Notes under the pieces: model-generated
Told to the model about the DNA's origin: nothing
Database searches by the model: none
Seen by the model: only the letters and a program-made list of their open reading frames with translations
DNA from: Plantibacter flavus
Lineage (GTDB): Bacteria; Actinomycetota; Actinomycetes; Actinomycetales; Microbacteriaceae
Length of the DNA: 64,000 nucleotides
Direction: 5' to 3'
NCBI RefSeq assembly: GCF_900177615.1
Contig: NZ_FXAP01000004.1
Location: forward strand, 1-64,000
Part shown: positions 39,898 to 54,203 of the stretch, piece after piece
How positions within the stretch are numbered: the stretch's first letter is position 1
How the letters are laid out: each line of letters opens with the position of its first letter
Position numbers and translations under genes: made by a program

Positions 39898-39957
39898 GTC
39901 CGTTCGCCCATCTTCGGGCGAACGAGGGCTCCGTCGCCCGAAGATGGGCGAACGGAC
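39898..39957. repeat. Palindromic repeat element, copy B
   Basis: Perfect 24-bp arms (39898-39921 and 39934-39957) enclose a 12-nt loop ACGAGGGCTCCG. The element begins 7 bp after trpS and faces convergent glpK. Each arm itself contains CGTTCGCCC and GGGCGA in inverted order, so a cruciform is also possible. Confidence 0.9.
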
Positions 39958-39964
39958 CACGACA

Positions 39965-40000
39965 GAACGGCCCGCCCTCCGCGAGGAGGACGGGCCGTTC
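39965..40000. terminator. Hairpin after glpK
   Basis: GAACGGCCCG and CGGGCCGTTC pair perfectly over 10 bp, continuing after one mismatch into CCTCC/GGAGG around a GCGA loop. It lies 13 bp beyond the glpK stop in the convergent gap, beside repeat copy B. Confidence 0.7.
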
Positions 40001-40013
40001 CGGTCGGTCGGGA

Positions 40014-41528
40014 CTACTGCACGTCGTCGTCGACCCAGTCGAAGGTCTTCGTGACGGCCTTCTTCCAGTTGCGGTAGAGGCGGTCGCGCTCTGCGGAGTC
40101 CATGTTGGGCTCCCAGCGCTTGTCCTCCTGCCAGTTCTTCGCGAGGTCGTCGAGGTCGGACCAGAAGCCGACGGCGAGACCGGCCGCGTAGGCCGCGCCG
40201 AGCGCCGTGGTCTCGGCGACGACCGGCCGGATGACCGGGACGCCGAGGATGTCGGCCTGGAACTGCATGAGCGTGTCATTGGCGGTCATGCCGCCGTCGA
40301 CCTTGAGCTCCGTCAGCGGGACACCCGAGTCGGCGTTGACGGCGTCGATGACCTCGGCCGTCTGGAACGCGGTCGACTCGAGAGCGGCCCGGGCGATGTG
40401 GCCCTTGTTGACGTAGCGGGTGAGCCCGACGAGCGCACCGCGGGCGTCCGGACGCCAGTACGGTGCGAACAGCCCGGAGAACGCCGGCACGAAGTACGCG
40501 CCACCGTTGTCCTCGACGGTCTTGGCGAGCGCCTCGACCTCGGGAGCGGAGGAGAACATGCCGAGGTTGTCGCGCAGCCACTGGACGAGCGAACCGGTCA
40601 CGGCGATCGAACCCTCGAGCGCGTAGTGCGGCTTCGCGTCGCCGAGCTTGTAGCCGAGCGTCGTCAGCAGACCGTTCTCGGAGTGGACGATCTCCTCACC
40701 GGTGTTGAAGATGATGAAGTTACCGGTGCCGTAGGTGTTCTTGGCCTCGCCCTGCTGGAACGCGGCCTGACCGAAGGTCGCCGCCTGCTGGTCGCCGAGG
40801 ATGCCGGCGATCGGCGTCTCGCGGAGGAGGCTGTCGTCGGACGCGTGGCCGTAGATCTCGGAGGAACTCTTGATCTCCGGGAGCATCGACTTCGGGACGC
40901 CGAACGCCTTGAGGATCTCGTCGTCCCACTGCAGGGTCTCGAGGTCCATGAAGAGCGTGCGCGAGGCGTTGGTGACGTCGGTGACGTGCACGCCGCCGTT
41001 GACACCACCGGTGAGGTTCCAGATGACCCAGCTGTCGGTCGTGCCGAAGAGGAGGTCGCCCGCCTCGGCCTTCTCGCGAGCACCCTCGACGTTCTCGAGG
41101 ATCCAGACGATCTTCGTACCCGAGAAGTAGGTCGCCAGCGGCAGGCCGACGGTCTTCTTGAAGCGCTCGACGCCACCGTCCGCAGCGAGGCGGTTCACGA
41201 TGTCCTGCGTGCGCGTGTCCTGCCAGACGATCGCGTTGTAGACGGGCTGACCGGTGGTCTTGTCCCAGACGACGGCGGTCTCGCGCTGGTTCGTGATGCC
41301 GATGGCCGCGATCGCGTGCCGGGTGATGTTGGCCTTGCTGAGCGCCTGGCCGATGACCTCGCGGGTGTTGTTCCAGATCTGGTTCGGGTTGTGCTCGACC
41401 CAGCCGGCCTTCGGGAAGATCTGCTCGTGCTCGAGCTGGCCCGTCGAGACGATCGATCCGCTCTTGTCGAAGACGATGGCCCGGGAACTCGTCGTCCCCT
41501 GGTCGATTGCGATGACGTAGTCCGCCAT
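40014..41528 (-). CDS. Glycerol kinase
   Basis: A 504-residue FGGY-family kinase forming glycerol-3-phosphate. Motifs: [18 protein letters not shown] (phosphate loop), [40 protein letters not shown] and the C-terminal [22 protein letters not shown]. Length matches the family. ATG at 41528 follows AAGGAG. It is the last gene of glpD-glpF-glpK, 101 bp after glpF. Confidence 0.97.
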
Positions 41529-41629
41529 TGGATACTCCTTCGTTGCGTGCGTTGCGAGGTGAGGCACCGGAACCGGTACCCCGGGGTGCCGCGGCGGTGA
41601 TCGTGTCCGGTCACCGCCGCAGCGTCAGG

Positions 41630-42382
41630 TCAGACGGCCGGGAGCAGCACCATCGAGGCGAGAGCCGCGAGGACACCACCGAGCAGGGGGCCGACGACCG
41701 GCACCCAGGCGTAGGACCAGTCGCTCTTGCCCTTGCCCTTGATGGGGAGGAGGGCGTGGGCGATGCGCGGACCGAGGTCACGTGCCGGGTTGATCGCGTA
41801 GCCGGTCGGGCCACCGAGGGAGGCACCGATACCGACGACGAGCAGGGCGACGGGCAGGGCGCCGAGGGCTGCGAGTCCCCCGGGGACGCCCTCGATGACC
41901 ACGGCGTCGGGGCCGGTCTTGCCGAAGGACATCACGACGAAGACGAGGACGAAGGTCGCGATGACCTCGGTCACGAGGTTCCAGCCGTAGCTGCGGATCT
42001 CCGGGCCGGTCGAGAAGACACCGAGCTTCTTGCCCGGGTCCTCCTCCTGGTCGAAGTGCTGCTTGAAGGCGAAGTACGTCAACACGGCACCGATGAAGGC
42101 ACCGACCATCTGCGCCGCCCAGTAGACGAGCGCCGTACCGAAGTCGATCGAGCCCGTGGTGAGGAAGCCGATCGTGACGGCGGGGTTCAGGTGTCCGCCG
42201 GAGGCGTAGGACACCGTGACACCGGCGAAGACCGCGAGGCCCCAGCCGAAGTTGATGAGCAGCCAGCCGCCACCCAGGCCCTTGGATTTCGTGAGGATCG
42301 CCGTGGCGACCACACCGGTACCGAGGAGGACGAGCATCGCCGTCCCCACGGTCTCGGAGAGGAAGATGGTTCCGAGGTTCAT
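41630..42382 (-). CDS. Glycerol uptake facilitator (aquaglyceroporin)
   Basis: A 250-residue MIP-family channel with six membrane helices. Both half-helix motifs are intact: GGHLNPAVTIG and YAINPARDLGPR. The Asp after the second NPAR and the open-pore residues favour glycerol over water conduction, in agreement with its place between glpD and glpK. It starts 147 bp after glpD. Confidence 0.95.
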   Translation of the reverse strand: MNLGTIFLSETVGTAMLVLLGTGVVATAILTKSKGLGGGWLLINFGWGLAVFAGVTVSYASGGHLNPAVTIGFLTTGSIDFGTALVYWAAQMVGAFIGAVLTYFAFKQHFDQEEDPGKKLGVFSTGPEIRSYGWNLVTEVIATFVLVFVVMSFGKTGPDAVVIEGVPGGLAALGALPVALLVVGIGASLGGPTGYAINPARDLGPRIAHALLPIKGKGKSDWSYAWVPVVGPLLGGVLAALASMVLLPAV

Positions 42383-53009: not shown

Positions 53010-53014
53010 CGTCG

Positions 53015-53074
53015 GTTCATTCGCCCATGTTTGGGCGAACGAGTGCTCCGTCGCCCAAACATGGGCGAATGAAC
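53015..53074. repeat. Palindromic repeat element, copy C
   Basis: Perfect 24-bp arms (53015-53038 and 53051-53074) enclose ACGAGTGCTCCG. Compared with copy B, four positions of the left arm differ and each is matched by the complementary change in the right arm. It lies in the 69-bp gap between convergent genes. Confidence 0.9.
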
Positions 53075-53078
53075 GGGG

Positions 53079-54041
53079 TCACGGGCGCCATCCTGCCGCG
53101 ATGAGGCGCTCGCGCGCTCGGTCGACCGCGACGGCGGCACCCGCCTGCAGGTGATGTGCGAGGAAGCGGTCGTGGGACCATCCGAGTCTGGTGACGGCAT
53201 GGATCCGGTCGACGTCCTTCGCGAACTGACCCGGGTCGGTGGCGTGCTGGCGCCCGTCGTACTCGAACGCTGCGCGATACGCCGGGTAGGCGAGGTCGAG
53301 ACGTGCGATGAATCTCCCCCAGCGATCGCGCAGTTCGTGATTGAGCACCGGCTCCGGGAGACCGGCGCGAACGAAGGCGAGTCGGAGTTCCGTCTCCTTC
53401 GGCGATTCGGAACCAGCGCGGATCTGCGGGAGTGCGGCACGGAGTGCCCCCGCGCCGACATGACGGGATCCACTGAGCGCCGCTGCGAGGTCGTCGAGCG
53501 AGCAGAGCGCTGGAAGGCGCTGGTGGAGCCAGCGCCCGGAGGCACCACGCTCACGGACCAGATGATCTCCGACCGCGACCAGCTCATCGATGTTGAGACT
53601 CGGTCCGAGCTGGCACCACATGTCGGCGGGACTCACGACCGCGAGCCTCTCAACGAGGATCGGATCGCCGAAGAGGCCCGCCAAGCGATGGCCGACGACC
53701 CCGGCGACCCTGGGCGCTCGGTCCGGCGGCCGGACGCCGACATGCACCTCGTCCCAGCGCAGCCGCGCCGGGAGCGGAGCATCCAGGAGGTGCGCGGCCG
53801 ACAGGTGCGAGAAGAACTGCGCCGGTGCCATTCGCTGGGCGTACGCCCGACACAGCTCCAGGTGCGCGAGATGACGATGTTCGGGAGGCAGGTCCGCTCC
53901 CCTGCGCGGTGCAGCGAAGCTCCGAACCCCCGGGAACGGTGCTGGAACACGCGTCGTGCGGAGGCGCTCCGGAGAGACGCCCTGCTCCAACGCCGAGCGG
54001 ACGGAGAAGGCTTGGTGATCGGGTAGATCAGTCGGCGTCAT
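53079..54041 (-). CDS. DUF559/Vsr-like endonuclease-fold protein, second copy
   Basis: A 320-residue paralogue of the protein at 15605-16522. The same order is seen: an N-terminal region with PERLRTTRVPAPFPGVRSF, a VVSPADMWCQLGPSLNIDEL segment, SPKETELRLAFVRAGLPEP, then the DUF559-like domain with IARLDLAYPAYRAAFEYDGRQH (candidate acidic residues) and GWSHDRFLAHHL. Function is not established; AbiEi-like antitoxin and endonuclease roles are only suggestions from fold resemblance. No toxin gene accompanies it. ATG at 54041 is plausible. Palindromic repeats flank it on both sides. Confidence 0.75.
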   Translation of the reverse strand: MTPTDLPDHQAFSVRSALEQGVSPERLRTTRVPAPFPGVRSFAAPRRGADLPPEHRHLAHLELCRAYAQRMAPAQFFSHLSAAHLLDAPLPARLRWDEVHVGVRPPDRAPRVAGVVGHRLAGLFGDPILVERLAVVSPADMWCQLGPSLNIDELVAVGDHLVRERGASGRWLHQRLPALCSLDDLAAALSGSRHVGAGALRAALPQIRAGSESPKETELRLAFVRAGLPEPVLNHELRDRWGRFIARLDLAYPAYRAAFEYDGRQHATDPGQFAKDVDRIHAVTRLGWSHDRFLAHHLQAGAAVAVDRARERLIAAGWRP

Positions 54042-54140
54042 GCTTCGATCGTCGCGCGATCGGTCGGTCCGCGACCGGCGCGCCCTCCTCGCATCGACCT
54101 ACCGCCGCGATCTCCGGCCTGTGGAGCGTCCTGGTCGCCG

Positions 54141-54203
54141 GTCCGTTCGCCCATCTTTGGGCGCACGAACCTCCATTCGCCCAAAACTGGGCGAATGGAG
54201 GAC
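54141..54203. repeat. Palindromic repeat element, copy D (degenerate)
   Basis: The left half 54141-54164 matches copies A and B closely, but the right half (54176-54203) has diverged, leaving mismatches. It sits between pckG and the downstream DUF559-type gene, the only copy not between convergent genes. Confidence 0.8.

Follow-up and report, generated by a model that had tools for sequence, protein, structure and literature searches.

Dispersed palindromes of Plantibacter resemble REPINs and bracket genes for a predicted Vsr-fold nuclease

We investigated a set of palindromic elements within a 64,000-nucleotide stretch of the Plantibacter flavus genome (positions 1 to 64,000 of contig NZ_FXAP01000004.1; henceforth the window), and a nuclease-like gene that lies between two of them. 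The four elements, A to D, belong to a repeat family (family 1) that resembles the REPINs of other bacteria, and they are probably a REPIN-like selfish repeat family partnered by a Vsr-fold nuclease, which is encoded between copies C and D. Palindromes of this plan are associated with genes of one nuclease family, in a pairing that is largely private to each gene; they sit behind genes, are dispersed, and turn over between species.

All four elements are present as 60-bp units in one register, with 24-nt arms and a 12-nt loop starting ACGA: A at 28212-28271, B at 39898-39957, C at 53015-53074 and D at 54141-54200, none of them assigned to a strand. The original prediction, that B and C have perfect arms differing at four positions, each compensated on the opposite arm, was confirmed, as was the inner inverted repeat within each arm: each half of an element is a palindrome itself, and the two halves are mutually inverted. 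The arms of A and D are imperfect. The family consensus is GTTCGTTCGCCC-N6-GGGCGA, a 12-nt loop, and TCGCCC-N6-GGGCGAACGAAC, totalling 60 bp, with a core-to-core spacing of 30 nt in 29/29 of the first-collected copies, which had been selected for a spacing within 28-34 nt. B, A and C rank highest among the short-range inverted repeats found in the window, with D outside the 25 listed. Convergent genes flank three of the four (A, B and C), as had been predicted, and D occupies a tandem gap behind a minus-strand gene that we take to be PEP (phosphoenolpyruvate) carboxykinase-like. Element B separates a plus-strand and a minus-strand gene, presumably trpS-like and glpK-like respectively, and C separates an ABC transporter gene (plus strand) from the nuclease gene (minus strand).

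The family is dispersed through the genome and is almost wholly confined to Plantibacter. A covariance-model search, with a model built from 29 copies, recovered 31 copies in the 4.3-Mb genome, scoring 54.9-83.8 bits over both strands, with the next match at 25.6 bits. The half-element pattern, allowing at most one mismatch, gave 31 forward and 28 reverse matches in the same genome, versus 2 and 2 for a reversed-pattern control. An exact pattern of 48 nt, 24 of them fixed, found 33 stretches, all in Plantibacter, among 84,980 species (one genome per species, a set that may not include the window's own genome). In a search of 60 relatives under stricter filters, family 1 was identified in all seven Plantibacter genomes (labelled G000 to G006, the window's own included), gave a weak match in a single genome from a different genus, and was not found in the remaining 52. 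The six other Plantibacter genomes carry 9 to 23 matches each, including a few that are weak or belong to another family; the copy table omits one weak G003 match (C6:1086957, 26.8 bits).

Mapping to gene ends showed that 29 of the 31 own-genome copies are no more than 21 nt from a stop codon (median 6). All 31 lie between called genes, with 15 in convergent gaps, 16 in tandem gaps and none in divergent gaps; for comparison, the window contains 37 tandem, 7 convergent and 7 divergent gene pairs. On the chromosome, the strong copies are concentrated around the origin and on the right arm in both single-contig genomes (Rayleigh test of uneven spread, G006, p 0.003, 20 strong copies; G004, p 0.0003, 14 strong copies).

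The gene bracketed by C and D (53079..54041, minus strand) encodes a protein of 320 aa, in which a Vsr-type nuclease domain is predicted at approximately residues 211-318. In the structure model, the top match of this predicted Vsr-like fold is a homing endonuclease catalytic domain, and acidic and histidine positions of the predicted nuclease are conserved in a four-row sequence alignment. Profile matches fall below the curated cut-offs, both for PF04480 (DUF559; 11.4 versus 20.6 bits) and for PF18741 (REase_MTES_1575; 16.2 versus 38.2 bits), and searches with PADLOC and NCBIfam returned nothing informative. G004 lacks this family-1 nuclease gene, and in G005 the gene's reading frame is split. 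Tyrosine-recombinase sites, with 11-6-11 halves, were also considered for the elements, and were dropped since the bracketed gene is nuclease-like.

We identified palindromes bracketing such nuclease genes in many related genomes. The four-row alignment matched 102 of 150 Microbacteriaceae genomes, in 63 of 85 genera, and located seven nuclease-family genes in G000, six in G004 and six in G006; listed palindromes flank 14 of these 19 Plantibacter loci on both sides. In a set of 48 loci, comprising these 19, one more from Plantibacter and 28 from other genomes of 22 genera, a flank-to-flank score of at least 16 was reached by 37/48 nuclease loci versus 0/47 other window genes, and palindromes of at least 14 were found on both sides of 25/48 versus 1/47, both thresholds having been set after the first flank results were seen. 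The survey regions were placed on the strongest matches and are not a random sample. In a comparison of 20-kb regions drawn from 20 genomes (16 genera), a flank score of 16 was reached by 13 of the 16 nuclease genes called, versus 2 of 294 others (Fisher p ~2e-18), one of the two high-scoring controls being a nuclease gene's neighbour; palindromes on both sides were found at 7/16 and 2/294, respectively. The simple gene finder that supplied the control genes missed four of the 20 nuclease genes, which score 25, 13, 18 and 19, bringing the total that reach 16 to 16/20. Nineteen of the 20 regions are wider cuts around nuclease genes already scored, with only G009 being new, so that what this set contributes is control genes, not further nuclease genes. 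Among three loci on Arthrobacter plasmids, one has similar palindromes on its two sides, and the other two have high flank scores and one listed palindrome each. A Tsukamurella plasmid gene annotated as DUF559 is bracketed on both sides; no bracketing was seen at a Nonomuraea locus, where the gene limits were guessed.

Different nuclease genes have different palindromes, and some of these are themselves dispersed. In family 2 (CTGAGTCGCCCGGATCTGC..; L235 2471-2530, 4026-4087 and 5008-5070; G000:C7:334126-335167), the nuclease gene lies exactly between two copies, and 14 to 23 half-site matches occur in five Plantibacter genomes, with none in G002 or G005. The stop codon (TGA) of the nuclease gene bracketed by family 2 lies inside the palindrome end. 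The Plantibacter stretches examined, a non-random sample, also contain solo copies from several additional families. In G034, a genome of another genus with seven nuclease matches, three of the five units examined have their own palindrome on both sides. One of its families (CGAGCACAGGAAA) is present in 7 palindrome copies, versus a mean of 0.017 in 60 arm shuffles, across 318 kb taken as 16 evenly spaced samples of 20 kb (at most two mismatches per arm). None of the seven copies falls within a called gene, and the closest stop codon is 7-33 nt away; of the other families, three occur once each in these samples and one not at all. A dispersed family with the same plan (GCATCCGTTCGCC..TTGCGA) was identified in G009, from another genus, with no nuclease gene found beside it in L205-L214. 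Across 30 units, palindrome similarity tracks protein similarity (Mantel test, Pearson 0.25, p 0.0003; Spearman 0.16, p 0.003), and did so without L267, a partner in the strongest pair (Pearson 0.18, p 0.001).

The sites turn over among Plantibacter species, four orthologous sites being filled in all seven species and others in as few as two. In this grouping the nine-copy site merges two neighbouring sites (455961 and 457012), C2:282916 is out of register in the site listing and turned against its orthologues in the covariation set, and C7:222878 stands alone. At site A, G002 and G005 have just 4 nt between two stop codons, and G004 and G006 a single half-element. At site B, the element is present in G000 and G003, identical across 112 nt; a half-like hairpin occurs in G002 and G005, and in G001, G004 and G006 the exact element position holds approximately 1.3 kb of extra sequence. 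Both elements and the intervening gene are missing from the C/D locus of G004, where one small hairpin is found, and at one further site G003 and G006 carry one half only. At G000:C2:455961-457083 and its orthologues (L068, L130, L173, L194), two family-1 elements surround a segment of approximately 1 kb (G000), 1.5 kb (G001) or 0.6 kb (G004), and in G006 one element joins the outer flanks of both; the repeats at this locus may drive the loss of genes between them. Two side observations concern such sites. Among the orthologues of G000:C2:455961 and of C2:328782, some species have the central six nucleotides of one half turned round (for example ATCTTT versus AAACAT), like a flipped hairpin loop; and a repeat, GGTCCCTGAGC..GTCGAAGGG, replaces the missing family-1 element in other species (L233 near 2860-3004; L120 near 589-780).

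The original suggestion that the elements resemble REP (repetitive extragenic palindromic) sequences or miniature inverted-repeat transposable elements is thus well supported, as they are dispersed, extragenic, present or absent by species, and bracket a nuclease gene. REPINs are described, in the available parts of PMC3116915, as inverted REP doublets that form hairpins and are tied to RAYT transposases, and the available parts of PMC3733652 place most REPs shortly after genes, in gaps of convergent or tandem orientation, with RAYT genes flanked by repeats. As far as these sources extend, our elements share the short extragenic palindromes, the hairpin-forming inverted doublets, the usual location just after genes whose neighbours are convergent or tandem, a partner gene with its own repeats on its flanks, and families that are related but distinct from one species to another; they differ in that the partner is a predicted Vsr-fold nuclease and not a Y1 transposase. 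The RAYT domain (Y1_Tnp, PF01797) was found in 0/8 genomes, by a search that was positive in 5/14 control genomes, and no GTAG or CGTC tag was seen in the column counts of family 1, the only family checked systematically. The palindrome families resemble REPINs but are not members of the REP/RAYT group. Homing endonucleases of the Vsr-like (EDxHD) type, for example I-Bth0305I, share the predicted fold of the catalytic domain and possibly a self-spreading gene; unlike these, the genes described here are bracketed by private palindromes that also disperse without the gene. DUF559 and REase_MTES_1575 proteins (PF04480, PF18741) have in common with it the weak profile matches and a Vsr-type restriction endonuclease fold, although the portion of PMC3710099 consulted describes no palindrome association for MTES_1575. 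According to the accessible text of PMC5678879, IS1272 likewise targets inverted-repeat structures without target duplication, but it has its own transposase and no private palindromes dispersed behind genes.

Under the selfish-repeat reading, the nuclease would recognise its own palindrome, whether duplex, hairpin or cruciform, and cutting of that palindrome would allow copies to spread or the gene to home in. The dispersed copies would be non-autonomous and the half copies deletion products; the inverted pairs of half-palindromes would sit behind stop codons as the places where harm is least, and any effects on transcript 3' ends would be secondary. Several findings weigh against this reading. 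Foldseek alone gave no E-value below 0.05 for the model of the 53079-54041 protein, whose N-terminal half is poorly modelled, and 6/29 loci from the wider Microbacteriaceae search score below 16. Bracketing in G034 extends to only three of five units, the single G009 nuclease region examined has a different palindrome from GCATCCGTTCGCC, and the Mantel effect is modest, with some units from the same genus. The sites common to all seven species indicate that movement is not frequent, and no target-site duplication was seen at the empty sites examined, where flanks are divergent. Recognition and cutting of the palindromes by the nuclease, and its causal role, are our inference.

The main rival is a homing cassette, in which the palindromes are targets: the nuclease cuts an unoccupied cognate palindrome, and repair of the break copies the gene into the site, which then has a palindrome on either flank of the gene. 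The palindromes would be immobile or spread by other means. The homing endonuclease domain found as the top match of the structure model would fit such a cassette, and a gene between two palindromes is the expected remnant of such an insertion. Site B, with a nuclease-type gene and another palindrome family in three species and the family-1 element in two others, also agrees with it. However, a cassette leaves unexplained 31 similar 60-bp copies in one genus and none elsewhere among 84,980 species genomes by the exact pattern, and no same-family pair of occupied and unoccupied states was found at one site among the sites fully read; we consider it unlikely. Chromosome-organising or self-marking sites bound by the nuclease protein, as nucleoid sites or as marks of own versus foreign DNA, would account for the uneven spread in G006 and G004, but copy number varies from 9 to 31 among species, the same plan occurs in many unrelated families, and the family-1 nuclease gene is absent in one species and split in another, making this explanation very improbable.

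The elements might instead serve the host, as bidirectional terminators or 3'-end stabilisers under selection for the hairpin, with the nuclease link incidental. Copies lie behind stop codons, about half of them in convergent gaps; the RNA hairpins are stable (mean minimum free energy -42 kcal/mol); and the long hairpin beats controls in 29 copies, with 31 versus 16 cells changed on both sides, although these copies were collected with a pattern fixing the core. For these 29 copies, the long hairpin was a better fit than a fold into two hairpins. The original proposal that structure and not sequence is selected is weakly supported: within-site covariation is slight (422 versus 409 complementary positions, p 0.019, 107 copies), and 11/24 arm pairs are invariant in 29 copies, an invariance partly built in as the search pattern fixed those bases. 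Unpaired arms, named in the original prediction as counting against it, proved common for the central block: its six positions are fully complementary in 19/107 copies (21 site groups), versus approximately 6 by random pairing. Both sequence and structure are conserved. A T-tract (at least 5 T in 10 nt, or a run of 4) was found in 0/62 flanks, a consensus terminator scan of 39500-54500 flagged no element, and an ordinary GC-rich hairpin (39965..40000, no strand), also found in species without B, adjoins that element. Together with the unpaired central block and gene-private bracketing across many genera, which would be unexpected of host elements, these results make a host function improbable.

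Two further features of the window remain to be recorded. A second gene of the same nuclease family lies at 15605..16591 (minus strand), with a palindrome (AGGTGAGGCAA..TTGCCTCACCT; 16581..16633, no strand) on its 5' side; a full copy of this palindrome was not found on the 3' side, and the protein of this second gene had no match in phage records. None of the elements matched an Rfam family at gathering score, the sole Rfam match of the window being an FMN riboswitch at 45478-45639.

The recurrence of one plan in many related bacteria suggests an unrecognised kind of tiny mobile DNA. Tentatively, and with slightly less than even confidence, we propose an actinobacterial counterpart of REPIN/RAYT, in which short private palindromes would be spread by a Vsr-fold nuclease in place of a Y1 or DDE transposase; several mutually specific nuclease-palindrome pairs would coexist in one genome, their turnover at gene 3' ends proceeding through loss, replacement and nested insertion. 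Among the small repeats of bacteria, REP-type palindromes are common, and for them the available parts of PMC3116915 and PMC3733652 name the RAYT transposase as partner. Here, widespread, untagged palindromes have a candidate partner of an unrelated enzyme class. If true, this would give a role to the abundant, unexplained Vsr/DUF559-like genes, and would offer many natural protein-palindrome pairs for testing specificity.
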